A stretch of 64,000 nt of DNA from Pelomonas caseinilytica (lineage in GTDB: Bacteria > Pseudomonadota > Gammaproteobacteria > Burkholderiales > Burkholderiaceae_C), in assembly GCF_021353235.1 (NCBI RefSeq), contig NZ_JAJTWT010000001.1, positions 372,001-436,000 of the forward strand. The letters run 5' to 3'. Positions 43,021-62,337 of the stretch are shown here, in pieces. Numbering within the stretch: position 1 is the stretch's first letter; every line of letters begins with the position of its first letter. The notes beneath the pieces were generated by a model. It was not told where the DNA came from. It saw only the letters and a list, made by a program, of their open reading frames with translations, and made no database searches. Made by a program: the position numbers and the translations under genes.

Positions 43021-43890
43021 ATGGCGGAAATGACAACTACAAGCTCCCCACGCCAGTCGGGCGGAGCAACACGCGGTGGGCGCTACTCCCTGGGCGAAGG
43101 CTGGATCAGCCTTGCCATCGCCCTGCTGGTGGCCGCGGCCTGGGTGGTCGTGCGGCTGGCAAACCTGCAGGCGACCTCGGACCTGGGCTATGGCCTGGGC
43201 ATCGCCGGCGGCGTGGCGATGTTGTTACTTTTTGCATATCCGCTGCGCAAACGGGTGCGCGCCCTGCAGCAGCTCGGCTCCGCCAAGCCCTGGTTCGTCG
43301 TCCACATGGTGCTGGGCGTGGCCGGGCCGCTGCTGATCCTGCTGCACTCCGGCTTTCGCATCGGCTCACTGAACGCCGGCGTGGCGCTGTGGAGCATGCT
43401 CATCGTGGCCGGCAGCGGCGTCGTCGGCCGCTTCCTCTACCTGCTGACCCACCGCGGCCTGAACGGCGAGCATGAGGAACTCGGCCGCCTGCTGCAGGGC
43501 CTGGGTGTGGCGGAGGCCCGCGGGGAATCCGTCTGGAGCGACACGCCCACGGTCACCGCGCCGCTGCACCGCTTCGCCACGTCCGCCCGGCAGCTCGCCG
43601 CACGGCCGGGGCATGACCTCGCGGGTCATTTCGAGGCCTTCGTGCTGCTGCCCTGGCGGCGGCGGGCTGAGCTGCATGCCGTCCGCAAGGCGCTGCGCCG
43701 GCTGGAGCGCCGCGGCGAGAGGACGCACAGCCTGGCCGCCATCGCCGAGGCCTATGCCGGCGCGCTGCGCGTGGCGCAGTACGGGCGCGCGACGCGGCTC
43801 TTCGAGCTCTGGCATGTGCTGCACATCCCCTTCGTGTACCTGATGGTGGTCTGCGCCGTCGTGCACATCGTGGCGGTCCACGTCTATTGA
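43021..43890 (+). CDS. Membrane cytochrome b-like protein, entry point of the multiheme operon
   Basis: 289 aa. About four membrane segments (residues about 28-47, 58-76, 90-112 and 262-287), with a cytoplasmic or periplasmic central domain of about 130 residues rich in Arg and His. Candidate heme ligands are paired histidines in the membrane parts: HMVLGV, LLHSGF, LWHVLHIPF and VVHIVAVHVY. It resembles inner-membrane di-heme cytochromes b that oxidise or reduce quinol for periplasmic multiheme partners; family assignment is by pattern only. It is the first gene of a plus-strand operon; 45 bp separate it from the 24-heme cytochrome. Confidence 0.75.
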   Translation: MAEMTTTSSPRQSGGATRGGRYSLGEGWISLAIALLVAAAWVVVRLANLQATSDLGYGLGIAGGVAMLLLFAYPLRKRVRALQQLGSAKPWFVVHMVLGVAGPLLILLHSGFRIGSLNAGVALWSMLIVAGSGVVGRFLYLLTHRGLNGEHEELGRLLQGLGVAEARGESVWSDTPTVTAPLHRFATSARQLAARPGHDLAGHFEAFVLLPWRRRAELHAVRKALRRLERRGERTHSLAAIAEAYAGALRVAQYGRATRLFELWHVLHIPFVYLMVVCAVVHIVAVHVY

Positions 43891-43935: not shown

Positions 43936-45753
43936 ATGACGCCGCGCGCGCTCGCCCGCCGCATCGGCGCCCTGGCGCGCTGGGCCGCCGCCCTGGCGCT
44001 GCTGTGGCTCGGCCAGGCGGCGCTGGCCGCGGGCTCGATGGAGTCCGCGCTGTCGCCCGGCGTGCTGACCCAGGCGCATGCGAAGTGGGACGACGCCTGC
44101 CGCAGCTGCCACACGCCCTTCGACCGCAAGGACCAGGACCGGCTCTGCGCCGACTGCCACAAGGACATCGGCCGCGACCTGTCGGCCCGGACCGGCCTGC
44201 ACGGCCGCATGAAGGCCGGGCAGAGCTGCCGCTCCTGCCACACCGAGCACAAGGGGCGTGACATGAGGATCGCCCCGCTCGACACCAAGTCCTTCGACCA
44301 CGCGCAGACCGACTACGCCCTGCGCGGCAAGCACCGCGACACCGACTGCGCGAAGTGCCATGCGGCCGGCCGCAAGTACAGCGCGGCACCGCAGGACTGC
44401 AACGGCTGCCACCGCAAGGACGACGTGCACAAGGCCTCGCTCGGCACCAAATGCGAGAGCTGCCACGACGAGCGCGGTTGGCGCGAGACGCGCTTCGACC
44501 ACTCGACGACGCGCTTCCCGCTGCTCGGTGCCCACGACGCGGCCAAGTGCGAGGACTGCCACCGCACGCGCGAGTACAAGGACACGCCGCGCGAGTGCGT
44601 CGGCTGCCACCGCAAGGACGACAAGCACAAGGGCCAGTTCGGCGACAAGTGCGAGAGCTGCCATGGCGAGAAGCGCTGGCGCGACATCGCCTTCCGCCAC
44701 GACGTGGACACCCGCTACCCCCTGCGGGACCGGCACCGCGACGTGAAGTGCACCAGCTGCCACGCCGGCAACCTCTACCGCGACAAGCTCGAGACCGCCT
44801 GCATCGCCTGCCACCGCAAGGACGACAAGCACAAGGCGACGCTCGGCACCGAATGCAGCAGCTGCCACAGCGAGCGCGGCTGGCGCGAGGTGAGGCGCTT
44901 CGACCATGACCGCACCGCCTTCCCGCTGCTGGGCCGCCACGTCAAGGCCGGCTGCAAGGACTGCCACCAGAGCCTGGTCTACCGGGAGGCCCCCGGCACC
45001 TGCATCGGCTGCCACAGGAAGGACGACAAGCACGAGGGTCATCTCGGCGAGCGCTGCGCCGACTGCCACACCGAGAACGACTGGGCGGCACGCCGCTTCT
45101 CCCACGCCCAGACCCGCTTCCCGCTGCGCGGCGCCCACGCGGCCGCCACGCTGAAGTGCGAGAGCTGCCACCGCGACCTGCGCAGCTACCGCGGCACGCC
45201 GACGGCCTGCATCGACTGCCACCGCAAGGACGACAAGCACGAGGCCCAGCTGGGCGAGCGCTGCCAGGCCTGCCATGGCGAGACGGGCTGGAAGGTCGAG
45301 AACTACGACCATCGCCGCGCCCGCTTCGCGCTGACGGGCGCCCACCAGACCACCGAGTGCAAGGCCTGCCATGCCAGCCGGCGCTTCCGCGACGCGCCGC
45401 GGGCCTGCGTCGGCTGCCACCTCAAGGACGACCGGCACAAGGCCCGCTTCGGCACGGCCTGCGAGTCCTGCCACGGCACGCGCAGCTGGAAGACCTGGCG
45501 CTTCGACCATGCCCGTGAAACCCGCTACGTGCTGGAGGGCAGGCACCTGAGTGCCGCCTGCGAAAGCTGCCACACGCAAGCGGCGCCGGCCGGCAAGCGC
45601 GCCGCGCCTCTGGACACGATCTGCGTGGCCTGCCACGCCCGCGACGACGTGCATGAGCGCAGCTTCGGCGTGCGCTGTGACCAATGCCACCAGCCCAGCG
45701 GCTGGCGTGACCTCGACACGCGCCGCAGCGCGCGCCCTGTGGGAGCCTCCTGA
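43936..45753 (+). CDS. 24-heme c-type cytochrome
   Basis: 605 aa with a signal peptide (about residues 1-33, ending LAAG). I count 24 CXXCH heme-binding motifs. The chain is a repeat of a three-heme module of about 62 residues with recurrent CHRKDDKH, a C-ESCH-GxRxW stretch, an FDH and an L-GRH. Each module therefore supplies three extra His, enough for bis-His coordination of every heme. It is strongly basic (Lys/Arg-rich), expected for a soluble periplasmic electron carrier. AGGGA precedes ATG 43936. The stop overlaps the start of the 53-heme gene by one base, so the two are translationally coupled. Confidence 0.93.
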   Translation: MTPRALARRIGALARWAAALALLWLGQAALAAGSMESALSPGVLTQAHAKWDDACRSCHTPFDRKDQDRLCADCHKDIGRDLSARTGLHGRMKAGQSCRSCHTEHKGRDMRIAPLDTKSFDHAQTDYALRGKHRDTDCAKCHAAGRKYSAAPQDCNGCHRKDDVHKASLGTKCESCHDERGWRETRFDHSTTRFPLLGAHDAAKCEDCHRTREYKDTPRECVGCHRKDDKHKGQFGDKCESCHGEKRWRDIAFRHDVDTRYPLRDRHRDVKCTSCHAGNLYRDKLETACIACHRKDDKHKATLGTECSSCHSERGWREVRRFDHDRTAFPLLGRHVKAGCKDCHQSLVYREAPGTCIGCHRKDDKHEGHLGERCADCHTENDWAARRFSHAQTRFPLRGAHAAATLKCESCHRDLRSYRGTPTACIDCHRKDDKHEAQLGERCQACHGETGWKVENYDHRRARFALTGAHQTTECKACHASRRFRDAPRACVGCHLKDDRHKARFGTACESCHGTRSWKTWRFDHARETRYVLEGRHLSAACESCHTQAAPAGKRAAPLDTICVACHARDDVHERSFGVRCDQCHQPSGWRDLDTRRSARPVGAS

Positions 45754-48700
45754 TGCCAAGACGACACCTCGGTCTCCTGCGCCCGTGGCTCATCGCCGCG
45801 CTGCTGCTCGTGGCGCTCGCGATGGGCCTGCACGCATCCCGCGTGGCACACGCCGCGACCGGCGGCACGGAGTTCGACCACCTCAAGACCGGCTTCGCAC
45901 TGACGGGCGCCCACCAGAACCAGCGCTGCGAGAGCTGCCACCAGGCCGGCGTCTTCAAGGGCACGCCGCGCGACTGCGAGTCCTGTCACACCTCGGGCGC
46001 GCGCCTGGCCAAGACCAACATCGTCAAGCCCGCCACCCACATTCCCACCAGCCAGAGCTGCGACAGCTGCCACGGCACGCGCAGCTTCACCGGCGCCAAG
46101 ATGGACCACAAGGGCATCGCCGCGGGCAGCTGCGCCAGTTGCCACAACGGCGTCATGTCGACCGGCAAGCCGGCCGACCACATCGCCACCACCGCATCCT
46201 GCGACAGCTGCCACCGCACCAGCGCCTGGAAGCCGGCCTCCGGGTTCAACCACGCGGGCGTGGTGCCCGGCAGCTGCGCGAGCTGCCACAACGGCGTCAA
46301 GGCCACCGGCAAGTCCGCCAACCACACGCCCTTCACGGCCGTCGCCTCGCTGGCCAACCTCGCCTGCGACAGCTGCCACAAGGCAGGCTTCTCGTCCTGG
46401 ACGCCCGCCAAGCTGCACGCCAGCGTCAACGTGACGGACAGCTGCGCGACCTGCCATGCGTCGAGCAAGCCCAACACCGCCGTGCACGCGGGCCAGACCG
46501 TCTGCGAAAGCTGCCACAAGAGCACCACCGCCTGGTCCGGCGCCAAGGTCGACCACGCCGCCTTCACCACGGCCACCAACTGCGCCAGCTGCCACAACGG
46601 CAGCGCGGCCACCGGCAAGCCCGCGGCCCACATCCCCGTGGGCGCCGCCAACTGCGCGACCTGCCACGCCACCTCGGGCTGGAAGCCGACCAAGTGGAAC
46701 CACACCCAGCTGCCGGTCACCGGCCAGTGCGCCAGCTGCCACAGCGGCGCCTATCCGCCGGCCGACGGCAAGCCGGCCACGCACACGCCCTACACCAACG
46801 TCTCGGCGCTGGCCTCCCTGGGCTGCGACAGCTGCCACAAGGCCGGCTACACCGCCTGGGCACCCGCCAAGCTGCACGCCAGCGTGAACGTGACGGACAG
46901 CTGCGCGACCTGCCACGCCTCCACCAAGCCCAACACCGCCGTGCACGCGGGGCAGACGGTGTGCGAGAGCTGCCACAAGAGCACGACGAGCTGGTCCGGC
47001 GGCAAGGTGGACCACGCCAGCTTCACCACCGCCACCAACTGCGCCAGCTGCCACAACGGCAATGCCGCCACGGGCAAGCCCGGCAGCCACATCCCCGTGG
47101 GCGCCGCCAACTGCGCGGCCTGCCACGCCACCTCGGGCTGGAAGCCCACCAAGTGGAACCACACCCAGTTGCCGGTCACCGGCCAGTGCGCCAGCTGCCA
47201 CAGCGGCGCCTACCCGCCGGCCGACGGCAAGCCCGCCACGCACACGCCCTACACCAGCGTCACCGCGCTGGCCTCGCTAGGCTGCGACAGCTGCCACAGG
47301 GCCGGCTACACCGCCTGGACGCCCGCCAAGCTGCACACCAGCGTGGCCGTGACCGGCAGCTGCGCGACCTGCCATGCGTCGAGCAAACCCAACACCGCCA
47401 TCCACGCCGGCCAGACCGTCTGCGAGAACTGCCACAAGAGCACGACGAGCTGGAGCACGGCCAAGGTCGATCACGGCAGCTTCAACGCCGCCACCAACTG
47501 CGCCAGCTGCCACAACGGCAGCGGCGCCACGGGCAAGCCCGCGACCCACATCCCCAGCGCCGCCACCAACTGCTTCAGCTGCCACAGCACTTCGGGCTGG
47601 AAGCCCACCAAGTGGAACCACACCCAGCTGCCGGTGACCGGCCAATGCGCCAGCTGCCACAGCGGCGCCTACCCGCCGGCCGATGGCAAACCCGCCACGC
47701 ACACGCCCTACCAGCTGGTGGCCACGCTGGCCTCGGCCAACTGCGACAGCTGCCACAAGGCCGGCTACACGGCCTGGGCGCCGGCCCGGCTGCATGCCAG
47801 CGTCACGGTCGTCGACAGCTGCGCGAGCTGCCACGCGTCGAGCAAGCCCAACACCGCCATCCACGCCGGCCAGACCGTCTGCGAGAGCTGCCACAAGAGC
47901 ACGTCGAGCTGGAGCACGGCCAAGGTCGACCACAGCACCTTCACCGCCGCCACCAATTGCACCAGCTGCCATAACGGCAGCAGCGCCACCGGCAAGCCGG
48001 CGGCCCACATCCCCGTGGCGGCCACCAACTGCATCAGCTGCCACAGCACCTCGGGCTGGAAGCCCACCAAGTGGAACCACACGCAGCTGCCGGTGACTGG
48101 CCAGTGCGCCAGCTGCCACAGCGGTGCCTACCCGCCGGCCGACGGCAAGCCCGCCACGCACACGCCCTACCAGCTGGTGGCCACGCTGGCCTCGGCCAAC
48201 TGCGACAGCTGCCACAAGGCCGGCTACACGTCCTGGACGCCGGCGCGACTGCACGCCAGCGTCACGGTCGTCGACAGCTGCGCGAGCTGCCACGCGTCGA
48301 GCAAGCCCAACACCGCCATCCATGCCGGCCAGACCGTCTGCGAGAGCTGCCACAAGAGCACGTCGAGCTGGAGCACGGCCAAGGTCGACCACAGCACCTT
48401 CACCGCGGCCACCAACTGCGCCAGCTGCCACAACGGCAGCAGCGCCACCGGCAAGCCGGCGGCCCACATCCCCGTGGCCGCCACCAACTGCATCAGCTGC
48501 CACAGCACCGCGGGCTGGAAGCCGACCAAGTGGAACCACACCCAGCTGCCCGTCACCGGCCAGTGCGCCAGCTGCCACAGCGGCGCCTACCCGCCGGCCG
48601 ACGGCAAGCCGGCCACGCACACGCCTTACCAGCTCGTCGGGACGCTGGCCTCGGCCAACTGCGACAGCTGCCACAAGGCCGGCTACACGTCCTGGACGCC

Positions 48701-49997
48701 CGCCCGGCTGCACGCCAGCGTGACGGTGGTGAACAGCTGCGCCAGCTGCCATGCCGGCATCAAGCCCAACACGGCCATCCATGCCGGCCAGACGGTCTGC
48801 GAGAACTGCCACAAGAGCACCACGAGCTGGACGAGCGCCAAGGTGGACCACAGCACGTTCACCGTCGCCACCAACTGCGCCAGCTGCCACAACGGCAGCA
48901 GCGCCACCGGCAAGCCTTCGGCCCACATTCCCGTGGCCGCCACCAACTGCATCAGCTGCCACAACACCACGGGCTGGAAGCCCACCAAGTGGAACCACAC
49001 CCAGCTGCCCGTGGCCAACCAATGCGCCAGCTGCCACAACGGCGCCTATCCGCCGGCCGACGGCAAGCCCGCCACGCACACGCCCTACCAGCTCGTCGCG
49101 ACGCTGGCCTCGGCCAACTGCGACAGCTGCCACAAGGCCGGCTACACGTCCTGGACGCCCGCCCGGCTGCACGCCAGCGTGACGGTGACGACGAGCTGCT
49201 CGTCATGCCACCTCTCGGTGCGCCCAGCCACCGCGGTGCATGCGGGCCAGACGGTGTGTGAGAACTGCCACAAGAGCACGACGAGCTGGACCGGCGCCAA
49301 GGTCGACCACAGCAGCTTCACCGTCGCCACCAACTGCTCGAGCTGCCACAACGGCAGCGCGGCCACGGGCAAGGCCGCCAGCCACATGCCGGTCGGCGCC
49401 ACCAACTGCATCGCCTGCCACAGCACCACGGCCTGGAAGCCCACCAAGTGGAACCACACCCAGCTGCCCGTGGCCAACCAGTGCGCCAGTTGCCACAGCG
49501 GCGCCTACCCGCCGGCCGACGGCCGTCCGGCCGGCCACATCCCCTACCAGACGCTCACCGGCGTCGTCATCACCAACTGCGACAGCTGCCACAAGGCCGG
49601 CTACGCCTCCTGGGCGGGCGGGCGCTTCCACGCCAACGTGAGCGTCACCGGCCAGTGCAAGACCTGCCACAGCGGCAGCTACACCTCGCAGGGCGCCACC
49701 GCCAAGCCGAGCAACCACATCCCCGAGGCGCAGCTGCTCAACGGCGCCGCCATGGAGTGCAACGCCTGCCACACCAGCGTGACCAGTTGGGCCCAGAAGA
49801 TGAACCACAACGGCAGCCAGGGCAGCGGCGCCGGCTGGTGCAAGGCCTGTCATGCCTCGGGCACCAACTACCTCGGGTCGATGGAGCGCATGTCGCTGAC
49901 CCACCGCACCAAGACGCCGGTACCGACCGACTGCTCCACCTCAGGCTGCCACCGGCCGCTCGGCAGCAAGGGATCGCCTTACACGAAATGGGACTGA
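45753..49997 (+). CDS. 53-heme c-type cytochrome made of tandem six-heme repeats
   Basis: 1414 aa with a signal peptide (about residues 1-34, ending AHAAT); no lipobox. I count 52 CXXCH motifs plus one terminal CSTSGCH (CX4CH). Six hemes occupy the N-terminal region, then seven 153-residue units each carry six CXXCH, then four CXXCH and the CX4CH close the protein. Each unit also has exactly six other His (KLH, VH-AGQ, VDH, HIP, NHTQ, THTP), one per heme, implying bis-His ligation throughout. Heme density is about one per 26 residues. It is Ser/Thr/Ala-rich and less charged than its neighbour, which suits an outer or extracellular location. Probably an electron-transfer wire; the terminal acceptor is unknown. 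Confidence 0.93.
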   Translation: MPRRHLGLLRPWLIAALLLVALAMGLHASRVAHAATGGTEFDHLKTGFALTGAHQNQRCESCHQAGVFKGTPRDCESCHTSGARLAKTNIVKPATHIPTSQSCDSCHGTRSFTGAKMDHKGIAAGSCASCHNGVMSTGKPADHIATTASCDSCHRTSAWKPASGFNHAGVVPGSCASCHNGVKATGKSANHTPFTAVASLANLACDSCHKAGFSSWTPAKLHASVNVTDSCATCHASSKPNTAVHAGQTVCESCHKSTTAWSGAKVDHAAFTTATNCASCHNGSAATGKPAAHIPVGAANCATCHATSGWKPTKWNHTQLPVTGQCASCHSGAYPPADGKPATHTPYTNVSALASLGCDSCHKAGYTAWAPAKLHASVNVTDSCATCHASTKPNTAVHAGQTVCESCHKSTTSWSGGKVDHASFTTATNCASCHNGNAATGKPGSHIPVGAANCAACHATSGWKPTKWNHTQLPVTGQCASCHSGAYPPADGKPATHTPYTSVTALASLGCDSCHRAGYTAWTPAKLHTSVAVTGSCATCHASSKPNTAIHAGQTVCENCHKSTTSWSTAKVDHGSFNAATNCASCHNGSGATGKPATHIPSAATNCFSCHSTSGWKPTKWNHTQLPVTGQCASCHSGAYPPADGKPATHTPYQLVATLASANCDSCHKAGYTAWAPARLHASVTVVDSCASCHASSKPNTAIHAGQTVCESCHKSTSSWSTAKVDHSTFTAATNCTSCHNGSSATGKPAAHIPVAATNCISCHSTSGWKPTKWNHTQLPVTGQCASCHSGAYPPADGKPATHTPYQLVATLASANCDSCHKAGYTSWTPARLHASVTVVDSCASCHASSKPNTAIHAGQTVCESCHKSTSSWSTAKVDHSTFTAATNCASCHNGSSATGKPAAHIPVAATNCISCHSTAGWKPTKWNHTQLPVTGQCASCHSGAYPPADGKPATHTPYQLVGTLASANCDSCHKAGYTSWTPARLHASVTVVNSCASCHAGIKPNTAIHAGQTVCENCHKSTTSWTSAKVDHSTFTVATNCASCHNGSSATGKPSAHIPVAATNCISCHNTTGWKPTKWNHTQLPVANQCASCHNGAYPPADGKPATHTPYQLVATLASANCDSCHKAGYTSWTPARLHASVTVTTSCSSCHLSVRPATAVHAGQTVCENCHKSTTSWTGAKVDHSSFTVATNCSSCHNGSAATGKAASHMPVGATNCIACHSTTAWKPTKWNHTQLPVANQCASCHSGAYPPADGRPAGHIPYQTLTGVVITNCDSCHKAGYASWAGGRFHANVSVTGQCKTCHSGSYTSQGATAKPSNHIPEAQLLNGAAMECNACHTSVTSWAQKMNHNGSQGSGAGWCKACHASGTNYLGSMERMSLTHRTKTPVPTDCSTSGCHRPLGSKGSPYTKWD
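46365..49577 (+). repeat. Seven in-frame tandem repeats of 459 bp inside the 53-heme gene
   Basis: The TGC of the first CDSCH motif of each unit recurs every 459 bp: the first is at 46365 and the eighth (start of a partial unit) is at 49578, a difference of 3213 = 7 x 459. No indel has accumulated. Adjacent units, especially the fourth and fifth (about 47742-48659), are nearly identical at DNA level, which points to recent duplication or gene conversion. Confidence 0.95.
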
Positions 49998-50002
49998 CAA
50001 CA

Positions 50003-52216
50003 ATGCACTTCACCGGCCGCGGCACTGCCGCCTTCCGCTCCCGCCTGCACGCCGTCGCGCTGGCCCTCCTCCTTGGCGCCACGCTGCTCCCGGCCGAGGC
50101 CCAGGTGCTGGACGACGTCGAGGCCCGGCGCGAGGGCCGCAACGCCATCGTCACCGTGCGCTTCGCGGCGCCGGTGCAACTGGTGCGGACGGTGTCGGCC
50201 CGCGACGGCAACCTCGCCCAGGTCTACTACGACGTGCTCGCCACGGGCGATGCGCTCAATCTCGTGGCCAGCGAACGCCGCGTTCCCCTGCCCCGGGGCG
50301 GCTACCTCGTGCTGCTGACCGACGAAGCCAGCGGCACCGCCGAGCGCAGCCGCAAGCTGGTGCTGCGCTTCAGCACGGCCACGGCCTTCACCGCCCGGCC
50401 CGGCCAGGGCAACCGCAGCATCGAGCTGGTGCTGGCCAACCAGGCGGAGGCCCTGTCGCCGCCGGCACCGGCCGCTGCCGCCTCGGCCGCCGCGCCCACG
50501 CCCGTGGCCCCGGAGCCCGAGGCGCGCCCGCTGACCGACGCCGAGCGCGAACGCTCCCGCGTGGCGCTCGCGGCGGCGCGCCAGCTCATCGAGCAAGGCG
50601 AGCATGGCCAGGCGCTGGAGCGGCTGGACGAAGTGCTGGCCCTGCCGCCGCACGAGGGCCGCATCGACGCACTGGAGCTGCGCGCCACGGCGCGCTGGCG
50701 CCAGGGCGACCCGGAAGGCGCGCGCGCCGACTACGAACGCTACCTGGCCCTCTACCCGCAAGGGCCGGGCGCCGCGCGGGCGCGCGAAGCCCTGCTCACG
50801 CTGGCGCCACCCGTGGTGGAAGCCGCCATCCAGGCGGGCCGCGAGCCCGGCCGCACGGCCGTCACGACCACCCTCGCCGGCTCGCTCGCGCTGATGTACT
50901 ACGGCGGCCAGTCCAAGGTCCGCACCCAGGAGTTCCAGGACTCGCCGATCGGCGGCCTGCCCCAGCTCGTCAACGACGCGACCCTGTCCGGCACCGACCA
51001 GCGCCAGCTCCTCTCCAGCGTGGACGTGAACTGGCGCCGCCGCGACGCCGACAGCGACCTGCGCCTGGTGCTGCGCGACACCAAGACCAACGACCTGATG
51101 CGGCCCGAGAAGAGCCGCAACAAGCTGACCGCGCTCTACGTGGACTACAAGCTCACGACGCCGGGCGTGCAGATGCGCCTGGGCCGGCAGTCGCCCACCG
51201 GCGGCGGCGTGATGGGCCGCTTCGACGGCGTGCAGGCGGGCTACCGCTTCGCGCCGCGCTGGCGCGTCAACGCCGTGGCCGGCGCGCCCACCGACGCCCT
51301 GCTCGACACCAAGCGCCGCTTCTGGGGCGTCTCCGTCGACGCCGACGAGATCGCCAAGGGCTTCGGCGGCAGCCTGTACTGGATCCAGCAGACCCTGGAC
51401 GGCCAGTCGGACCGCCGGGGCCTCGGCGCCGAGCTGCGCCTGCTGGCCGGCCAGTTCACCGCACTGGGCTCGCTCGACTACGACCCCCAGCTCAAGGGCT
51501 GGAACATCGTCTCCACGCAGAGCACCTGGCAGGGCGCGGACAACACCATCGTCAACGTCCTCTACGACCGCCGCGCCACGCCCATGCTGATGCTGGGCAA
51601 CGCGCTCTTCTTCCAGAACCCCGTGGCCCAGGTGCAGGCGCGCACGCTGTACGAACTGCTGCTCACGCAGAGCCTGCCGGTGCTGCGCCAGCAGGTGCGC
51701 AGCACCACCGCCTTCAGCACCCAGGCCATGGTGAGCGTCACCCACCCCGTCACCGCCCACTGGCAGGCCGGCGCGGACCTGCGCCTGACCAACGTCGGCG
51801 CCCTGCCGCCCGTGGCCGACATCCTGCCCAACGGCCAACCCGGCACCGGCAATGTGTGGAGCATGGGGGCGCAACTGATCGGCACCAACCTGTACTCGGC
51901 CCGCGACACCCACGTCGTGCTGCTGACCCTGCTGCGCGGGCCGACCTACCACGGCGAGCTGCTCTCCTACAACAACGCCTCGGCCGTCGGCGAAGGCTGG
52001 CTGCTGGAGCCGTCGCTGCGCCTGTACCAGCAGTCGGAGGACAGCGGCCTGCGCACGCGCCGCTGGGCCCCGGGCCTGCGCGCGAGCAAGCGCTTCCTGG
52101 CCCGCTGGGTGGCCGAAAGCGAGCTCAGCATGGAGTTCAGCAAGTCGCAGAGCGCCAACCGCAACGAAAGCTCGCACCGCACCTTCTACTACGTCGGATT
52201 GCGCTATGACCTCTGA
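50003..52216 (+). CDS. Outer-membrane beta-barrel protein with periplasmic TPR region
   Basis: 737 aa. Signal peptide about 1-31 (ends AEAQ). A beta-rich domain at about 32-140 is followed by an Ala/Pro linker (about 150-180), TPR-like helices (about 185-270) and a C-terminal part of about 440 residues with alternating amphipathic strands (LRLVLRDTKTND, VQMRLGRQSPTGGG, YVGLRYDL at the end), as in outer-membrane barrels. No Cys is seen. In MtrB-type conduits a barrel holds a multiheme cytochrome across the outer membrane; here the upstream 24- and 53-heme cytochromes are the obvious partners. Start ATG 50003, 5 bp after the cytochrome stop; ATG 49988 is an alternative. It overlaps ccmA by 11 nt. 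Confidence 0.82.
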   Translation: MHFTGRGTAAFRSRLHAVALALLLGATLLPAEAQVLDDVEARREGRNAIVTVRFAAPVQLVRTVSARDGNLAQVYYDVLATGDALNLVASERRVPLPRGGYLVLLTDEASGTAERSRKLVLRFSTATAFTARPGQGNRSIELVLANQAEALSPPAPAAAASAAAPTPVAPEPEARPLTDAERERSRVALAAARQLIEQGEHGQALERLDEVLALPPHEGRIDALELRATARWRQGDPEGARADYERYLALYPQGPGAARAREALLTLAPPVVEAAIQAGREPGRTAVTTTLAGSLALMYYGGQSKVRTQEFQDSPIGGLPQLVNDATLSGTDQRQLLSSVDVNWRRRDADSDLRLVLRDTKTNDLMRPEKSRNKLTALYVDYKLTTPGVQMRLGRQSPTGGGVMGRFDGVQAGYRFAPRWRVNAVAGAPTDALLDTKRRFWGVSVDADEIAKGFGGSLYWIQQTLDGQSDRRGLGAELRLLAGQFTALGSLDYDPQLKGWNIVSTQSTWQGADNTIVNVLYDRRATPMLMLGNALFFQNPVAQVQARTLYELLLTQSLPVLRQQVRSTTAFSTQAMVSVTHPVTAHWQAGADLRLTNVGALPPVADILPNGQPGTGNVWSMGAQLIGTNLYSARDTHVVLLTLLRGPTYHGELLSYNNASAVGEGWLLEPSLRLYQQSEDSGLRTRRWAPGLRASKRFLARWVAESELSMEFSKSQSANRNESSHRTFYYVGLRYDL

Positions 52217-52829
52217 AGGCCAGGAGCTGCTGCGCGCCGAGGGCCTGGCCTGCGACCGCGGCGGGCAGCGGGTGCTGTCGCTGCGGCGGCTCACGCTGTC
52301 GCGCGGCGCGGGGCTCTGGCTCAGGGGGCGCAACGGCTCCGGCAAGACGACGCTGCTGCGGGCGCTGGCGGGCCTGCTCGAGCCGGCCGCTGGCGAAGTC
52401 TGGCGCGACGGCGCCGAGGGCCTGCTGTACGTGGGCCACACGCTGGCGGTGAAGGACGACCTCAGCGTCGCCGAGAACCTCGAATGCCTGGCCGAGCTGA
52501 GCGCCCTGGAGACGCGCCCGCGGGCCCTGCAGGGGGCGCTGGTGCGCTGGCAGCTGTGGGAGCGGCGCCACCACCCGGCGCGACGCCTGTCCCAGGGCCT
52601 GCGCCGGCGCGTCAGCCTGGCGCGGCTGGACCTGGCGGCAGCCCGCCCGCTGTGGCTGCTGGACGAACCTTTCGACGCCCTCGACGACGAGGGTCAGGCC
52701 CTGCTGGCCCAGGCCCTCACGCGCCACCGCCTGCGCCAGGGCGGCTGGGTGCTCAGCAGCCACCAGGGCCTGCCGGCACAACTGGACGGTGTCCAGGCCC
52801 TGTGGCTGGACGGCGGAGCCGCCGCATGA
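52206..52829 (+). CDS. ccmA: Heme exporter ATPase CcmA
   Basis: 207 aa ABC ATPase: Walker A GRNGSGKTT, signature LSQGLRRRVSLARL, Walker B LWLLDEPFDALD. With CcmB and CcmC it drives release of holo-CcmE from the CcmC complex in System I cytochrome c maturation. Its ATG lies 11 nt inside the preceding outer-membrane gene, which couples cytochrome maturation to the multiheme cluster. Confidence 0.95.
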   Translation: MTSEGQELLRAEGLACDRGGQRVLSLRRLTLSRGAGLWLRGRNGSGKTTLLRALAGLLEPAAGEVWRDGAEGLLYVGHTLAVKDDLSVAENLECLAELSALETRPRALQGALVRWQLWERRHHPARRLSQGLRRRVSLARLDLAAARPLWLLDEPFDALDDEGQALLAQALTRHRLRQGGWVLSSHQGLPAQLDGVQALWLDGGAAA

Positions 52830-53551
52830 GCCATGCGATGGCCCGCACGCCCGCTGCCAGCGGCGACGCCGGGGCCTACCAGGCCCTGCGCGCGGCCCGG
52901 GCGATGTGGCGGCGCGACTGGCGGCTGGCCCTGCGCCGCCGCGGCGAGGCGCTGCTGCCGCTGGGCTTCTTCCTCGTCAGCGCCGCGTTGCAGCCCCTGG
53001 GGTTGAGCCCCGAGCCGGCACTGCTGCGCCAGGTGGCGCCGGGCCTGATCTGGTCGGCCGCCCTGCTGGCCGCTCTGCTGCCCCTGCCCGCGCTGTTCGC
53101 GCAGGATCAGGCCGACGGCAGCCTCGACCAGATGTGCCTCAGCCCCGCCCCGCTCTGGCTGCTGGCCACCGCCAAGGTCGCCGGCCACTGGTGCTGGGCG
53201 GGGGCGCCGCTGGTAGCGATGTCGCCGTTGCTGGGCGTGCTCTACGGGCTGGACGCCAGCGCCATCCTCACGCTGGCCCTGGGCCTGCTGCTGGGCACGC
53301 CCGTGCTCAGCCTGCTGGGCGCCGTGGGCGCGGCCCTGACCGTGGGCCTGCGCCAGGCCGCGGCCCTCATCCTGCTCATCGTGCTGCCGCTGGCCGTGCC
53401 GGTGCTCGTCTTCGGCAGCAGCGCCGTGCAGGCCACCCAGGCCGGCCAGTCGCCGCTGGCGCCGCTGGGGCTGATCGCCGCCCAGCTGCTCGTCATGGCC
53501 TGGCTGGCGCCCTTCCTGATTTCCAAGGCCCTGCGCCTTGCCTGCGAGTGA
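52826..53551 (+). CDS. ccmB: Heme exporter membrane protein CcmB
   Basis: 241 aa, about six membrane segments. Motifs PGLIWSAALLAALL and FAQDQADGSLDQM are typical of CcmB. It forms the ABC complex with CcmA. ATGA overlap with ccmA (52826-52829); ccmC follows after 3 nt. Confidence 0.94.
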   Translation: MSHAMARTPAASGDAGAYQALRAARAMWRRDWRLALRRRGEALLPLGFFLVSAALQPLGLSPEPALLRQVAPGLIWSAALLAALLPLPALFAQDQADGSLDQMCLSPAPLWLLATAKVAGHWCWAGAPLVAMSPLLGVLYGLDASAILTLALGLLLGTPVLSLLGAVGAALTVGLRQAAALILLIVLPLAVPVLVFGSSAVQATQAGQSPLAPLGLIAAQLLVMAWLAPFLISKALRLACE

Positions 53552-53554
53552 CCC

Positions 53555-54343
53555 ATGGCTGCCGCTGACATCACCCCTGCCCTCCCCGCTTCCACGCACC
53601 GCTGGCGGGCCTTCGCCCTCGCCTCCCCGGCGGCCTTCTGCCGCGTGCTGGCGCGGGCGCTGCCGGCGCTCTGGGCGTCGAGCGCCCTGCTGGCGCTGGC
53701 GGGCCTGTACGTCGGCTTCGTCGTCGCGCCGACCGATGCCACCCAGGGCGAGGCCTACCGCATCATCTACATCCACGTGCCGGCGGCCTGGCTGTCGATG
53801 GTGCTCTACCTGGCCATGGCCTTCTGGGCGGTGCTCGGCTGGGCGTGGAAGGTGCGCATGGCCTCGGTGCTGGCCCAGGCCATCGCGCCCACCGGGGCGC
53901 TGTTCACGGTGCTGGCGCTGTGGACGGGCGCCTGCTGGGGCAAGCCCACCTGGGGCACCTGGTGGGTGTGGGACGCGCGGCTGACCAGCGAACTGGTCCT
54001 GCTCTTCCTCTACGTCGGCTTCATGGCCCTGGCCGCCAGCTTCGAGGAGCCGCGCCGCGCGGACGTCGCCTCGGCCCTGCTCGCGCTGGTCGGCGTCGTC
54101 AACGTGCCCATCATCTATTTCTCGGTGCGCTGGTGGAACACCCTGCACCAGGGCGCCTCGGTCAGCCTGACCGCCGCACCCAAGATGGCCTCGACCATGC
54201 TGACGGCCATGCTGCTCATGACCCTGGCCTGCTGGGCCTACGCCTTCGCGGCGGTCTTCGCGCGCGCCATCGCCGCGGTGATCGAGCGCGATGCCGACCA
54301 CCACTGGGTGGCCGAGTACCTGGATTCGGAGTCCCGCCGATGA
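53555..54343 (+). CDS. ccmC: Heme-handling protein CcmC
   Basis: 262 aa, six membrane segments, with the periplasmic heme-binding WWD motif [13 protein letters not shown] flanked by the conserved HVPAAW and NTLHQG histidines. It presents heme to CcmE for covalent attachment. The ORF overlaps ccmD by ATGA. Confidence 0.96.
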
Positions 54344-54567
54344 ACCCCTCCCCGCTGACCGAGCTGCTGCACCTGCACGGCTACGGCATCTACGTCTGGC
54401 CCGCCTATGCCGCCATGCTGGCCGGGATGCTGGCCGAGCCCTGGCTGATCCACCGCCGCATGGCCCGTGCGCGCGCCCTGGCCCGCCAACAGTGGCGCAC
54501 CACCGAGCCCGACGACGACGGTGCCTCCGCCTGGGGCCCGACCCGAGCGCCGCAGGAGCTGCCGTGA
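54340..54567 (+). CDS. ccmD: Small membrane protein CcmD
   Basis: 75 aa, one membrane helix near the N-terminus ([19 protein letters not shown]) followed by a basic stretch, the standard layout of CcmD, which stabilises the CcmCDE complex. It overlaps ccmC (ATGA) and ccmE (GTGA). Confidence 0.92.
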
Positions 54568-54998
54568 AGCCCCGCCACTGGAAACTGGCCGCCGCCGCCG
54601 GCCTGCTGCTGACGCTGGGCGTCGTCGCCGCGCTGGTGCTGCGCGCCTTCAACAGCAACCTGGTGTTCTTCTACACGCCCAGCCAGGTGAGCGCCGGCGA
54701 GGCACCGAACGGCCGCGTCTTCCGCGTGGGAGGCCTGGTCGAGCCCGGCAGCCTGCAGCGCGACGGCGTGAAGGTGAGCTTCCGCGTCACCGACACCGCG
54801 CGGACGATGACCGTCGCCTACGAGGGCATCCTCCCCGACCTGTTCAAGGAGGGCAAAGGCGTGGTGGCGCAGGGCCGCCTGGTGGACGGCCGGTTCGTCG
54901 CCCAGGAGGTGCTCGCCAAGCACGACGAGAACTACATGCCGCCCGAAGCCGCGGCAGCCATGAAGGCGGCCTCGGCCGCCCGCGGAGGCCGCACGTGA
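54564..54998 (+). CDS. ccmE: Heme chaperone CcmE
   Basis: 144 aa from a GTG start in a GTGA overlap. An N-terminal membrane anchor is followed by a periplasmic beta-barrel. The heme-attachment His120 and Tyr124 lie in the family motif [10 protein letters not shown]. It carries heme from CcmC to CcmF/H. Confidence 0.96.
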
Positions 54999-56974
54999 CG
55001 GCGGAACTCGGCCATCTCGCGCTGTGGCTGGCCCTGGGCGCCTGCGCGCTGCAGGCGTTCGTGCCGTTATGGGCCCTGCGCCGCCGGCAGGCCGACTGGC
55101 TGGCCCTCACGCGGCCGGTGGCCTTCGCCACCGCCGCACTCGTGGCGCTCGCCTTTGCCTGCCTGACCCTGTGCTTCGTGCAGGACGACTTCTCGGTGCT
55201 CTACGTGGCCGAGCACTCCAACACGGCGCTGCCGCTGGCCTACAAGGTGGCCGGCGTGTGGGGCGGGCACGAAGGCTCGCTGCTGCTGTGGCTGCTGATG
55301 CTGCAGGTCTGGACGGTGGCCGTCGCGCTGGCCAGCGGGCGGCTGCCCGAGGCGCTGGTGACGCGGCTGCTGACCGTGCTGGCCTGGGTGGCCCTCGGCT
55401 TCCTGCTGTTCATGCTGCTGACCTCCAACCCCTTCGAGCGGCTGTGGCCCGCGCCCCCGGACGGCCGCGACCTCAACCCGCTGCTGCAGGACCCGGGCAT
55501 GGTCATCCACCCGCCCATGCTCTACATGGGCTACGTGGGCTTCTCGGTGGCCTTCGCCTTCGCCATCGCCGCGCTGCTCAGTGGCGAGCTGGACGCGCAA
55601 TGGGCGCGCTGGACGCGGCCCTGGACGACGGCGGCCTGGGTCTTCCTGACGCTGGGCATCGCCCTGGGCAGCGGCTGGGCCTACTACGAGCTGGGCTGGG
55701 GCGGCTGGTGGTTCTGGGACCCGGTGGAGAACGCCTCCTTCATGCCCTGGCTGGTGGGCACGGCGCTGATGCATTCGCTGGCCGTGACGGAGAAGCGCGG
55801 CGCCTTCAAGTCGTGGACGGTGCTGATGGCCATCCTTGCCTTCTCGCTGTCGCTGCTGGGAACCTTCCTCGTGCGCTCCGGCGTGCTGAGCTCGGTCCAC
55901 GCCTTCGCCTCGGACCCGAAGCGCGGCCTCTTCATCCTCGCGCTGCTGGGCATCACCGTGGGCGGCGCGCTGGGGCTGTATGCCTGGCGGGCGGCCAGGG
56001 TGGGCCTGGGGGCGCGGTTCGCCTTGCTCTCGCGCGAGACCCTGCTGCTGGTCAACAACGTCGTGCTGCTGGCCGCGGCCGGCGCGGTGCTGCTGGGCAC
56101 CCTCTACCCGCTGGTGCTGGACGCGCTGGGCCTGGGCAAGATCTCCGTCGGCGTGCCCTACTTCGAGGCCGTGTTCGCGCCGTTGATGGCGCCGGTGCTC
56201 TTCCTGATGGCGCTGGGGCCGCTGGCGCGCTGGAAGCAGGCCGAGGCCGCGCCCCTGCTGCGCCGGCTGCGCTGGGCCCTGGGCGTTTCCGTCGCCACCG
56301 GCGTGCTCGCGAGCTGGGCGGCCGGCCGCATCGGCTGGGCCAGCGCTGCGGGCCTGGCGGCGGCCTGCTGGATCCTGCTGAACCTCGCGGCCGACCTGTG
56401 GCCCGCCCACGGCGGCTGGCGCCGCCTGTCCACCCACCTGGGGCAGATCGGCCGCGCCACCTGGGGCATGACGCTGGCCCATGCCGGCGTGGCCGTGTTC
56501 ATCATCGGCGTGACCATGGTCAAGGGCTACGAGGTCGAGAAGGACGTGCGCGTGCATGCCGGCGAGACCGTGACGATGGCCGGCTACCAGTTCCGCTTCG
56601 ATGGCACGCGCGACCTGGCCGGCCCCAACTACCAGGCCGTGCAGGCGGGGGTCAGCGTCACGCGCGACGGCGCGCCCGTGGCCTTCCTCGCGCCCGAGAA
56701 GCGCGTCTACCGCGTGCAGCAGAACCCCATGACCGAGGCCGCCATCGACCCCGGCTTCACGCGCGACCTCTACGTCGCCCTCGGCGAGCCCCTGCCCGAC
56801 GGCGGCTGGACGCTGCGCGTCTACGTCAAGCCCTTCGTCGACTGGATCTGGGGCGGCTGCCTGCTGATGGCCTTGGGCGGCGCCCTGGCCGCGAGCGATG
56901 CCCGCTACCGCCGGCGGCGCCGGGCCGCGCAGCCGGCGCCCGCGGCAATGCCGCTGAAGGAGGAACTCGCATGA
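54995..56974 (+). CDS. ccmF: Cytochrome c heme lyase subunit CcmF
   Basis: 659 aa, large polytopic protein with the WWD heme-handling motif [19 protein letters not shown] and conserved His in HPPMLYMGY. It attaches heme to apocytochrome CXXCH motifs together with CcmH/I. GTG start at 54995 in a GTGA overlap with ccmE. It must handle at least 77 attachment sites from this operon alone, including one CX4CH. Confidence 0.97.
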
Positions 56975-57537
56975 CCGCGCGACGCCGCCGTCTCTGGCCC
57001 GTGCTGCTGCCGCTGGTGGCGTTCGGCGCCCTCGTGGCCGTGCTGGCCGTGGGCCTGAACCGCGACCCGCGCGAGGTGCCCAGCCCCCTCATCGGCAAGC
57101 CCGCGCCGCCGCTGCTGCTGCCCCGGCTGGACGACCCCGCCGCACGCGTCTCGGGCGAGGCCTTGAAGGGCAAGGTGTGGATGCTCAACGTCTGGGCGAG
57201 CTGGTGCGGCGCCTGCCGCGAGGAGCATCCGATGTTCGTGGCCTTCGCCAAGCGCCAGGCCGTGCCCATCTACGGCCTGGACTACAAGGACACCCGCTAC
57301 GCCGGCCAGGACTGGCTGCGCCGCCTGGGCAACCCCTACGTGGCCTCCGCCTTCGACGAGGACGGCCGCGCGGGACTGGACTGGGGCGTCTACGGCGTGC
57401 CCGAGACCTTCATCATCGACGCGCGCGGCGTGGTGCGGCACAAGCACATCGGGCCCGTCACGCCCGAGGTGCTGAAGGACAGCATCGAACCCCTGCTCGC
57501 CCAGCTCCAGGCCGAAGCCGCCGGAGGCACGCCATGA
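56971..57537 (+). CDS. ccmG: Thiol:disulfide oxidoreductase CcmG (DsbE)
   Basis: 188 aa, N-terminal anchor and periplasmic thioredoxin fold. The active site is WASWCGACREEH with Cys79 and Cys82, and the cis-Pro loop is GVPETFIID. It reduces the Cys pairs of apocytochromes before heme attachment. It overlaps ccmF and ccmH by 4 nt each. Confidence 0.96.
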   Translation: MTARRRRLWPVLLPLVAFGALVAVLAVGLNRDPREVPSPLIGKPAPPLLLPRLDDPAARVSGEALKGKVWMLNVWASWCGACREEHPMFVAFAKRQAVPIYGLDYKDTRYAGQDWLRRLGNPYVASAFDEDGRAGLDWGVYGVPETFIIDARGVVRHKHIGPVTPEVLKDSIEPLLAQLQAEAAGGTP

Positions 57538-58040
57538 AGGCCGCGATCACCGGCCGCCAGGCCCTGTGGCTGCGCGCCGCAGTCGTCGCGCTGCTGGCCT
57601 TGGCCAGCCTGGTGCTGCAAGCCCGGGCGCAGGCCCAGACCCAAGAGGCCCAGCCCACCGCCGACGACCCGGCGCTGGAGGCCCGCATGCTGGCCCTCAC
57701 CGCCGAGCTGCGCTGCCTCGTCTGCCAGAACCAGACCGTGGCCGACTCCCACGCCGCCCTGGCCGTGGACCTGCGCAACCAGGTGCGCGAGATGCTGCGC
57801 AAGGGCGCGAGCGACGACGAGGTGATGCGCTACATGACGGACCGCTATGGCGACTTCGTCCGCTACCGCCCGCCGCTGCAGGGCCGCACGGCGCTGCTGT
57901 GGGCGGGGCCGGCGGTGCTCGCCCTCGGCGGCCTGGCCGGCCTGCTGTGGCATTTGCGCCGGCGTCAGCAATGGGCCGAGTCCGACTTCGAGCCCGATCC
58001 CGAAACCCCCGAGACTTCCGAGGACGCCCATGTCGGCTGA
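57534..58040 (+). CDS. ccmH: Cytochrome c maturation protein CcmH
   Basis: 168 aa with signal peptide and one C-terminal membrane helix. Thiol motif RCLVCQNQ (Cys61, Cys64) and the family motif DRYGDFVRYRPP. It takes part in apocytochrome reduction and delivery to CcmF. It overlaps ccmI by 11 nt. Confidence 0.95.
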   Translation: MKAAITGRQALWLRAAVVALLALASLVLQARAQAQTQEAQPTADDPALEARMLALTAELRCLVCQNQTVADSHAALAVDLRNQVREMLRKGASDDEVMRYMTDRYGDFVRYRPPLQGRTALLWAGPAVLALGGLAGLLWHLRRRQQWAESDFEPDPETPETSEDAHVG

Positions 58041-59211
58041 ACTCCAACGCGTGCTCGCGCAGATCGAGCAGATCGAACAAGCCCACCGCCAGGGCGTGCT
58101 GCCCGCGGACCTCTATGCCGAGGCTCGCCAGCGCCTGGATGCCTTGCTGATGGCGGCGGTGGGGCCCGCACCGACCACGCCGGCGGCGCCACCGCCCGCA
58201 CGGAGAACCCGCTGGGCGACGCGCCAGGGCGCGGTACTGGCCGCCGTGGCCCTTGCCATCGGCGGCGCCGGTTACGCCTGGAAGGGCAGCCCCCGCCTCG
58301 GCGCGGCGGCGCCCGCCGCGTGGCCGGCCCCGACGGCAGCGCCGCAGGCCGCGGCCTCCGCGCCGCATGCCCTGGGCAACGACGCCATGGCCGGCATGGT
58401 CCAGGCCCTGGCCGAGCGCTTGAAAGCCAAGCCCGACGATGCCGAAGGCTGGGCCATGCTGGCCCGCTCGTACACGACGCTGGGCGACGTGGCCGCGTCG
58501 CTGCCGGCCTATGCCCAGGCCCTCAAGCTGGCCCCCAAGGACGCCGAGCTGATGGCCGACTACGCCGACGCGCTGGCCCTGCAGCAGGGCCGCCGGCTCG
58601 CTGGCGAACCGCTGGCCTGGGTGAAGAAAGCCCTGGCCCAGGACCCGCGCCAGCCCAAGGCCCTGCTGCTGGCCGGCACCGAGGCCTTCGACCGGCAGGA
58701 CATGGCCGCGGCGATCCGCTACTGGGAGCAGGTGGTGGCCGCAGGCCCGGCGGGCAGCGGCCTGGTCGAGCAGGCCCGCAACGGCCTCGACGACGCCCGC
58801 AAGGCGCAAGGCGGCGGCGCGGCCAGCCCGGTGCCGGCGGCGCCGGCCCAGGCGCAGCAGGTGGCCGCGGCCAAGGTGGGCGGCACGGTGCGCCTGTCGC
58901 CCGAGCTGGCGCGCGACGCCCGACCCGACGACACAGTCTTCGTCTTCGCCCGCGCCGCCGAGGGGCCACGCATGCCGCTCGCGCTGCTGCAACGCCGCGT
59001 GCGCGACCTGCCGCTGCGCTTCGAGCTGGACGACAGCCAGGCCATGAACCCCGCGGCCCGCCTCTCCAGCGCCCAGCGCGTGGTGGTGACGGCCCGCGTG
59101 AGCCGCTCGGGCCAGGCCCAGCCCCAGCCCGGCGACCTGGAAGGCGCCACGCAGGCCGTGGCCCTGGGCCGCAGCGACCTCGACGTGCTGATCGCCTCGC
59201 GCGTGCGCTGA
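58030..59211 (+). CDS. ccmI: Apocytochrome chaperone CcmI
   Basis: 393 aa. N-terminal CcmI segment, a membrane helix (VLAAVALAIGGAGYAW), TPR repeats (residues about 110-235) that bind apocytochrome C-termini, and a C-terminal CycH-type domain (FVFARAAEGPRMPLAL). It is the last gene of the operon; 8 bp separate its stop from the convergent FAD oxidoreductase gene. Confidence 0.92.
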   Translation: MSAELQRVLAQIEQIEQAHRQGVLPADLYAEARQRLDALLMAAVGPAPTTPAAPPPARRTRWATRQGAVLAAVALAIGGAGYAWKGSPRLGAAAPAAWPAPTAAPQAAASAPHALGNDAMAGMVQALAERLKAKPDDAEGWAMLARSYTTLGDVAASLPAYAQALKLAPKDAELMADYADALALQQGRRLAGEPLAWVKKALAQDPRQPKALLLAGTEAFDRQDMAAAIRYWEQVVAAGPAGSGLVEQARNGLDDARKAQGGGAASPVPAAPAQAQQVAAAKVGGTVRLSPELARDARPDDTVFVFARAAEGPRMPLALLQRRVRDLPLRFELDDSQAMNPAARLSSAQRVVVTARVSRSGQAQPQPGDLEGATQAVALGRSDLDVLIASRVR

Positions 59212-59219
59212 CGCCGCCT

Positions 59220-60512: not shown

Positions 60513-60541
60513 CGGCCGGGTCAGCGTGAGGTCGGCGGCCC

Positions 60542-60574
60542 AGTGTCCGCACCCAGGCTGAAGCCGAGCTGAAC
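60542..60574 (-). promoter_or_regulatory. OmpR-type box and -10 of the FAD oxidoreductase gene
   Basis: Minus strand: GTTCAG-CTCGG-CTTCAG (60574-60558), 10 nt, GACACT (60547-60542). The start point would be near 60535, leaving a leader of about 23 nt. Confidence 0.6.
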
Positions 60575-60601
60575 GCCTGGCGCAGCAGCCGGCCGCCGGC
60601 T

Positions 60602-61351: not shown

Positions 61352-61371
61352 GGAGGGCTCCGTGATCGGGT

Positions 61372-61881
61372 TCAGTCGTCCCAGGCCGCGCGCTGGCGGG
61401 CGCTGAGGCCTTCGGGCATGCGCAGGCCGTGCTCGCTGTACCGGCCTTGGTCGGCACCGCTGTGGCAGGCCATGCAGTTCGCGGCCGAACGGACGCTGGG
61501 CAGGCGCCAGGTGGCCGCCTCGATGTGCCGGTGCTTGTGTTCGAACCGCGCTGTGCGGGTGATGCGGTCCTCGGGCACGGTGGCGCGAGCGTCGCGCCCG
61601 GCGTTGTCCTGCAGCCATTGGCCGAGGCGCTGGACGTCCTGCGGGTCCAGCGAGGCGTCGGTGCCGAAGTGCCTGTCCAGCCCGCCCATCAAACGGGCCC
61701 ACGATGCGGCGGGCAGCATGCGCGGCGGGTAGGCCACGTGGCAGGCCGCGCACTCCTGCACGTAGGCCTTGGGCCAGGCGACGGCGGTGCGGCCTTCGTG
61801 ATCATCGGCGTGGACCGCCGGGCTCAGCGGCAGGGCCGACAGGGCGAGCGCGGCACGGGAGAGGAAGGTGTGGAAGTTCAT
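61372..61881 (-). CDS. Diheme cytochrome c (DHC)
   Basis: 169 aa, signal peptide to about residue 25, two heme motifs: CAACH (44-48) and CMACH (135-139). Arrangement and length fit the DHC family, the electron donor of SHP in photosynthetic and other proteobacteria. It sits between the SHP gene (15 bp) and the cytochrome b gene (20 bp) in one minus-strand operon. Confidence 0.9.
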   Translation of the reverse strand: MNFHTFLSRAALALSALPLSPAVHADDHEGRTAVAWPKAYVQECAACHVAYPPRMLPAASWARLMGGLDRHFGTDASLDPQDVQRLGQWLQDNAGRDARATVPEDRITRTARFEHKHRHIEAATWRLPSVRSAANCMACHSGADQGRYSEHGLRMPEGLSARQRAAWDD

Positions 61882-61896
61882 CGCGGCCTCCCCGGT

Positions 61897-62295: not shown

Positions 62296-62337
62296 GGGCA
62301 GTCCTCGAGCAGGCGCAGCCATCATCGAAAACCGCCC

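Follow-up and report, generated by a model that had tools for sequence, protein, structure and literature searches.

The 64,000-nucleotide stretch analyzed here as a whole, referred to as the window (Pelomonas caseinilytica, assembly GCF_021353235.1, contig NZ_JAJTWT010000001.1, positions 372,001 to 436,000), contains a gene for a cytochrome c with 53 heme sites, which belongs to a gene cluster of the PCC3 type. The explanation that best accounts for the data, with a probability of about 0.65, is that this protein is the extracellular wire of a PCC3 electron conduit, at the inner end of which stands an oxidoreductase with flavin adenine dinucleotide (FAD) and iron-sulfur (Fe-S) domains. An earlier note on the same DNA described the cytochrome by itself; it is one part of a multigene cluster. 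Statements on published work refer throughout to the portions of the cited sources that were available.

At the sequence level, the window has every PCC3 feature looked at: porin, both multiheme cytochromes, the motifs of the inner-membrane protein (IMP) and the gene order. The genes follow each other as IMP, 24-heme cytochrome, 53-heme cytochrome and porin, then an overlapping ccm operon (Table 1); base 45753 belongs both to the stop codon of the 24-heme gene and to the start codon of its 53-heme neighbor. The IMP-periplasmic-extracellular-porin order is also found in L013, L014, L015 and many other named loci, the locus set being the best 80 of 237 loci obtained by scanning genome contigs with an IMP alignment; L017, on the same contig as L013, was removed from the counts. 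The IMP contains five hydrophobic segments and features the motif WX3HX13H twice, at W91/H95/H109 in the third transmembrane segment and at W264/H268/H282 in the fifth, while SGVVG, at residue 132, starts at the end of the predicted fourth. W91, H95, H109, S132, G133, G136, W264 and H268 are kept in 93 of 93 relatives, H282 in all 72 whose match extends that far. The 24 CXXCH motifs of the periplasmic cytochrome are within the range of about 21-27 hemes used to define PCC3, and the residue-to-heme ratio of the 53-heme protein, 25.9, is low, as the same definition asks. For the 24-heme protein no solved relative was found at E 0.001. Porin relatives in PCC3 loci are 31-68% identical; a sequence search with the porin gave weak TPR matches and nothing else. 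Its AlphaFold2 model, from 23 sequences, has a predicted local distance difference test score (pLDDT) of 81 and a predicted template modeling score (pTM) of 0.58, with strands, about 22 by our own count, between residues 288 and 736; Foldseek matches it to outer-membrane barrels, but with low template modeling scores.

The cluster thus resembles PCC3 as first described (He 2017, PMC5566968) in the IMP and its motifs, the two multiheme cytochromes, the porin, the low residue-to-heme ratio and the repeats; it differs in the additional FAD/Fe-S gene and in the joined ccm operon, neither of which that description mentions. The cluster type, its huge heme numbers, the repeats, the idea of a wire and extended AlphaFold2 models are already published (PMC5566968, PMC10734462, PMC7096707). 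The literature consulted knows PCC3 solely from genomics, transcriptomics and proteomics, and terms it 'functionally unverified' (PMC12442390). Within the window's genus, to which G005 belongs, the 53-heme protein was matched in two of the 20 genomes searched.

The FAD/Fe-S gene accompanies the extracellular cytochrome very closely. With a threshold of E 1e-80, it is found in all 32 genomes having a strong extracellular-cytochrome match, against one (G404) of the other 367 of the 399 family genomes; in 23 of the 32 both genes lie on one contig, at most 16.2 kb apart. Four weak extracellular matches (G033, G143, G154, G163; E 1e-4 to 6e-8) were left out of this count, which becomes 32 of 36 if they are kept. 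For the 12 genera including both kinds of genome, the gene is present in one (again G404) of the 31 negatives listed. A class-wide draw of 274 genomes gives a similar picture, with the FAD/Fe-S gene in 33 of 34 strong-IMP genomes and in one of the 240 others; nine weak IMP matches out of 43 (E 1e-12 to 1e-22) were left out, and keeping them gives 33 of 43. IMP and FAD/Fe-S genes share a contig in 29 of these 33, with a gap below 1 kb in 22, and three genomes (G493, G496, G561) hold two copies of each. At the level of the fetched loci, the gene is inside 36 of 93, in 18 of which it lies divergent beside the IMP gene.

The encoded protein features a hydrophobic N-terminal segment followed by basic residues, a FAD motif, a GGGDSA NAD(P) motif and, in its 461-residue open reading frame (ORF), ferredoxin-like motifs at residues 87-97 and 117-127. 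The second Cys of these two motifs is replaced by Ser and by His, respectively, in 34 and 37 of 37 relatives: a non-Cys cluster ligand or a three-iron cluster is possible. The nearest solved relatives are of the thioredoxin-reductase/YpdA types. Use of NAD(P)H (reduced nicotinamide adenine dinucleotide or its phosphate), cluster type and topology are predicted from these features.

The link of PCC3 with the ccm genes is frequent, not universal. Of the 32 genomes matched strongly by the extracellular cytochrome, 30 contain ccmE, and 12 have it no more than 15 kb from that cytochrome; among the other 367, ccmE is present in 133. Twenty-two loci include the entire porin gene and 1.2 kb or more beyond its 3' end: in ten of them ccmA starts between -28 and +7 nucleotides from the porin stop. 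Since the genome of the window contains, elsewhere, a second ccm set and a System II ccsB scoring over its cut-off, the PCC3-linked operon is an extra set.

As for the 53-heme protein itself, its ORF has an ATG start and a G+C content by codon position of 0.51/0.63/0.96. A direct count confirmed what the earlier note had read in its 1414 residues, namely 52 CXXCH motifs plus a terminal CX4CH (CSTSGCH, residue 1394). A chance origin of the motifs is ruled out: 1000 same-residue shuffles contained 0.585 CXXCH on average and five at most. The hemes are arranged as a 6-heme N-cap, seven hexaheme units, each with spacing 26-20-26-24-25-32, and a 5-heme C-cap. Of the 57 His outside CXXCH, three (H5, H26, H33) are in the signal peptide and one (H1400) in the CX4CH, which leaves 53 spare His for 53 hemes in the mature protein, with exactly one in 51 of the 52 inter-heme gaps; the seven core units with one spare His per heme, already noticed, are therefore upheld. 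In an alignment of the first 18 hemes from 17 sequences, 16 heme sites and 16 spare His are, by our own reading, invariant. Bis-histidine (bis-His) ligation and a straight heme chain are suggested by this regularity; heme loading, extracellular location and porin docking are likewise predicted.

The one-to-one rule extends to the whole family. Across 36 extracellular proteins with 12-71 hemes, spare His plotted against heme number gives a slope of 0.996 (r 0.996); the two numbers coincide in 23 proteins and are within one of each other in 32, two frameshift-like ORFs (L024, L079) having been left out of the fit. Lys, by comparison, varies per heme five times as much (standard deviation 0.25, against 0.048 for spare His). 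The rule fits bis-His ligation, short of showing it: of the chain of bis-His hemes formerly proposed, the length and the spare His stand, while the ligation would follow from sequence regularity.

The number of 53 hemes is far above that of most described cytochromes, as first noted, but is not exceptional. The 38 complete extracellular ORFs of the family contain 11 to 71 heme sites (L081, L086 and L134, without N-cap motif in the extracted frame, are not among them); the highest counts are 71, in the complete L127, and at least 72 CXXCH, in the incomplete ORF of L076. Extracellular PCC3 cytochromes with up to 85 hemes are reported by He 2017 (PMC5566968). Record or orphan status is ruled out by these relatives and by the published 85-86, and within its own family the protein is mid-to-high. 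The periplasmic cytochrome is, in contrast, mostly fixed at 24 hemes, with exactly 24 CXXCH in 76 of 85 complete ORFs of relatives. The other nine have 27 (three ORFs), 21 (two), 18 (two), 15 and 9; the last two, both from L054, were counted separately and appear to be a single gene in two parts. Removed beforehand were L134 and L138, which are the contigs of L086 and L020 fetched a second time.

The outer cytochrome varies by lineage-specific heme modules. Three spacing types were found, hexaheme (the window and relatives), diheme (24-23, e.g. the Thiobacillus-titled loci L046, L053 and L056) and heptaheme (28-29-35-36-40-44-56, e.g. L037 and L128), all with an N-cap beginning 16-26/28-24-23. 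Heme numbers follow 11 + 6k in 14 of the 17 hexaheme-type proteins that are complete. The terminal unit of the window clusters with those of L013, L018 and L019, while inner units group mostly by genome, indicating that they were duplicated or homogenized separately; L021 also has seven units, which group with one another. DNA identity among the seven units of the window is 78-95%. The pair of units 4 and 5, at 94.8%, is a likely site of both recent duplication and assembly error: the genome is a 40-contig draft, and the number of near-identical units is provisional and could err by whole units.

Both the 53-heme protein and its 24-heme neighbor match the decaheme MtrA-type model TIGR03508; for the former the score, 271.3 bits against a cut-off of 192.2, comes from seven repeated partial matches, and DmsE/MtrA-type membership is ruled out by this piecemeal match and by the presence of 53 hemes instead of ten. 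MtrC/OmcA membership is also ruled out (TIGR03507, 95.1 bits against a cut-off of 209.3). The only solved chain matched is 6r2q chain A, which we take to be MtrA, although the PDB record names another molecule. A match to Gin is regarded as a chance match on the Cys pattern. MtrCAB and MtoAB feature, like PCC3, a porin with periplasmic and surface cytochromes, but are built on 10-heme subunits. The two predicted b hemes on HX13H pairs are shared with NOX and ferric reductases, a likeness of the IMP noted by He 2017 (PMC5566968); the proposed PCC3 flavoprotein differs from theirs, being of the thioredoxin-reductase/YpdA type with an Fe-S domain and a membrane anchor of its own. The evidence for an NAD(P)H-binding flavoprotein donor, as in NOX, consists of the co-occurrence and sequence motifs of the FAD/Fe-S gene. 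In bacteria, the MsrQ-Fre pair is a membrane di-heme-b protein fed by a flavoprotein.

Taken together, these data make most likely a path in which electrons would pass from NAD(P)H to FAD, Fe-S, the two b hemes of the IMP, the 24 hemes, the porin and the 53 hemes, or the reverse. The tethered FAD/Fe-S oxidoreductase would probably carry electrons from NAD(P)H to the IMP hemes or back, following NOX/ferric-reductase logic. The heme number of such cytochromes is linearly related to their length (about 27 hemes for 200 Å, 86 for 630 Å; Edwards 2019, PMC7096707), which gives calculated lengths of about 18 nm for 24 hemes and 39 nm for 53. The periplasmic cytochrome would be about as long as the periplasm is wide, the 22-stranded porin would carry electrons between it and the outer chain, and the latter, of probably bis-His hemes, would reach tens of nanometers outside the cell. 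A chain longer than the periplasm, as previously estimated, is in line with this calculation and with the suggestion that such a cytochrome leaves through a porin (Edwards 2019, PMC7096707); because a separate 24-heme cytochrome is available, the 53-heme chain need not cross the periplasm itself. The N-cap, related to the repeat of the periplasmic cytochrome, probably docks at the porin; the chain would grow as six-heme units are duplicated within it, and covalent heme attachment would be supplied by the linked ccm genes.

A number of observations weigh against this explanation. The FAD/Fe-S gene is absent from the fetched stretch in 57 of the 93 loci (eight of them without upstream room); it occurs without IMP or extracellular-cytochrome match in G404 and G013 and without IMP in G637, while G650 has an IMP without it. 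No Pfam ferric-reductase match was obtained for the IMP at E up to 5. The 53-heme protein contains a hydrophobic signal-like segment (residues 6-24) with no lipobox Cys or lipid anchor in the signal region, so that its placement at the outer surface follows predictions published for relatives. The structure prediction proposed earlier was carried out on the first 18 hemes with 17 sequences and gave a pLDDT of 46.4 and a pTM of 0.20: the model was not used, and heme stacking and ligation are predictions from sequence. In published proteomes of ES-1, the extracellular protein Slit_1448 is 0 in all eight columns listed (PMC12016527). Outward flow, in particular, is opposed by Sideroxydans CL21, where PCC3 copy 2 has its IMP upregulated in cells able to oxidize iron (PMC12442390). 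No closely similar characterized protein was found in the sources consulted.

The direction of flow is the point on which the strongest alternative differs. The membrane potential, inside negative, favors outward electron flow. For this reason, and because both PCC3 clusters of Sideroxydans lithotrophicus ES-1 are downregulated on Fe(II) (PMC8788666), the balance leans, at somewhat below even odds, towards NAD(P)H as donor for an extracellular acceptor; a smaller share goes to inward flow, and the rest to an undecided or reversible direction. A more specific proposal, of PCC3 as a five-part, NAD(P)H-driven, NOX-like exporter to distant acceptors, with Fe(II) oxidation as at most a secondary role, is put forward as tentative. 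In the inward alternative, the 53-heme protein collects electrons from Fe(II) or minerals, which the IMP passes to quinone or, through the FAD/Fe-S protein and some other energy source, to NAD(P)+. It is the view taken in the papers describing PCC3, it agrees with the presence of PCC3 in Fe(II) oxidizers and related bacteria (PMC5566968, PMC10734462, PMC13386937), and the CL21 response just mentioned (PMC12442390) speaks for it; the lower ES-1 transcripts (PMC8788666) speak against it. It is considered unlikely, though it is the best placed of the alternatives: transfer across the IMP would run against the membrane potential, and an NAD(P)H-type flavoprotein would be a costly end point for Fe(II) electrons. 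We know of no metal oxidation in the window's genus, which also counts against inward flow; in the literature searched, no paper was found on Roseateles or Pelomonas with extracellular electron transfer.

Two further alternatives are both improbable, to about the same degree. In one, the FAD/Fe-S protein works in cytochrome maturation, reducing thiols or heme for the Ccm system, and stands outside the electron path. Its FAD domain does resemble YpdA and thioredoxin reductases, and the gene abuts ccmI in the window and adjoins ccmI, without PCC3, in G013. Yet the 133 of 367 genomes without a strong extracellular match that contain ccmE contrast with the single one having the FAD/Fe-S gene; the divergent position beside the IMP gene, in half of the loci holding it, and the conservation of the Fe-S motifs also point away from maturation. 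In the other, the extracellular protein mainly stores electrons, and its length is a by-product. Storage has been suggested for PCC3 (PMC10734462), and the outer chain, unlike the periplasmic part, differs greatly in length between relatives; such variation is, however, equally expected of a wire with unconstrained outer reach, and a capacitor needs neither the regular spacing of one His per heme nor a porin partner. Polymerization of the 53-heme protein, like that of Geobacter OmcS, OmcE and OmcZ, which are also bis-His multiheme chains outside the cell (ligation in the 53-heme protein being predicted), is very unlikely, since, although multiheme cytochromes do form filaments, the known ones are polymers of small, 4-8-heme subunits (PMC9473688) with no porin in a joint cluster, whereas here a single chain, paired with a porin, already contains all the repeats between an N-cap and a C-cap that differ, and a search of solved chains revealed no sequence relation to the three proteins.

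Publications on PCC3, which go back to 2017, test no function for it, place nothing inward of the IMP and assume that electrons flow inward. Should the FAD/Fe-S protein, in the conduit favored here, be an obligate partner, it would provide a cytoplasmic donor or acceptor open to assay and make the direction directly testable: this enzyme, overlooked so far, may couple the PCC3 wire to the cell's own NAD(P)H. The fixed 24-heme inner wire and the variable outer one would form a natural length series (12 to more than 70 hemes) for conduction scaling. The His/heme scaling, the contrast between fixed and variable parts, the FAD/Fe-S partner and the linked ccm operon are new here, with uncertain priority for the last two. 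No mention of either with PCC3 was found in the literature searched; the main text of He 2017 (PMC5566968), figures and supplements being outside this scope, contains no reference to FAD, pyridine nucleotide, ccm, heme exporter or cytochrome c biogenesis. In a published Table 1, however, a cluster named '4Fe-4S ferredoxin iron-sulfur binding domain protein' is listed for 41 of 87 Fe(II)-oxidizer genomes, against 42 for the periplasmic PCC3 cluster. It might be the same gene, and the similar frequency makes priority for the FAD/Fe-S partner uncertain; the text of that paper, in the parts available, does not join an Fe-S flavoprotein to PCC3.

Table 1. Features of the window, in window coordinates.
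Feature	Position	Strand	Description and evidence
PCC3 inner-membrane protein (IMP), predicted di-heme-b cytochrome	43021..43890	+	289 aa
Periplasmic multiheme cytochrome (predicted location)	43936..45753	+	605 aa, 24 CXXCH; Pfam Cytochrome_C7, Cytochrom_c3_2
Extracellular multiheme cytochrome (predicted location)	45753..49997	+	1414 aa, 53 heme sites; PCC3 member
Seven hexaheme units, 459 bp each	46365..49575 (approximate)	+	CXXCH residue 205 to CXXCH residue 1276; spacing and unit extraction
PCC3 porin	50003..52216	+	737 aa; N-terminal beta domain, TPR, C-terminal barrel of about 22 strands
ccmA	52206..52829	+	TIGR01189, 159.9 bits (cut-off 131.6); overlaps porin gene by 11 bases
ccmB	52826..53551	+	PF03379
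ccmC	53555..54343	+	TIGR01191, 209.8 bits
ccmE	54291..54998	+	NF009729, 191.7 bits, residues 93-230; conserved part from about 54561
ccmF (start approximate)	55007..56974	+	PF16327, PF01578 in ORF 54467-56974
ccmG/dsbE (start approximate)	56989..57537	+	TIGR00385, 168.4 bits
ccmH	57534..58040	+	PF03918, 7.5e-48
ccmI	ORF 57847..59211, true start further downstream	+	PF23914, PF23892; domains at residues 172-445
Membrane-tethered FAD/NAD(P)/Fe-S oxidoreductase, proposed cytoplasmic PCC3 partner	59220..60512	-	Pyr_redox_3, Fer4_10

Some loci depart from the common arrangement. In G013, of the window's genus, positions 8217-10797 of L144 contain the FAD/Fe-S gene and ccmI, with 79% DNA identity to window positions 58018-60576; unrelated genes follow, and the segment is possibly the remnant of a lost PCC3 island. 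In L070, L083 and L091, which lack the usual extracellular cytochrome, the IMP and FAD/Fe-S genes stand with a cytochrome of 18 or 27 hemes and, apart from it, a protein of 11 hemes; the arrangement may be a relative of PCC3. L085, titled as a Klebsiella pneumoniae metagenome-assembled genome, probably by a binning error, contains Thiobacillus/Burkholderiales-like IMP, porin-like, FAD/Fe-S and ccm genes, without the 24-heme gene.

Finally, genes for a cytochrome b561, a dihaem DHC and a DUF1924 monohaem cytochrome (60602-62325, minus strand) are located beside the FAD/Fe-S gene of the window. Among PCC3 loci this trio is found in L016 and L045 only; by its make-up alone it resembles the iron-responsive ircABCD (diheme, monoheme, hypothetical and b-type; PMC12442390).

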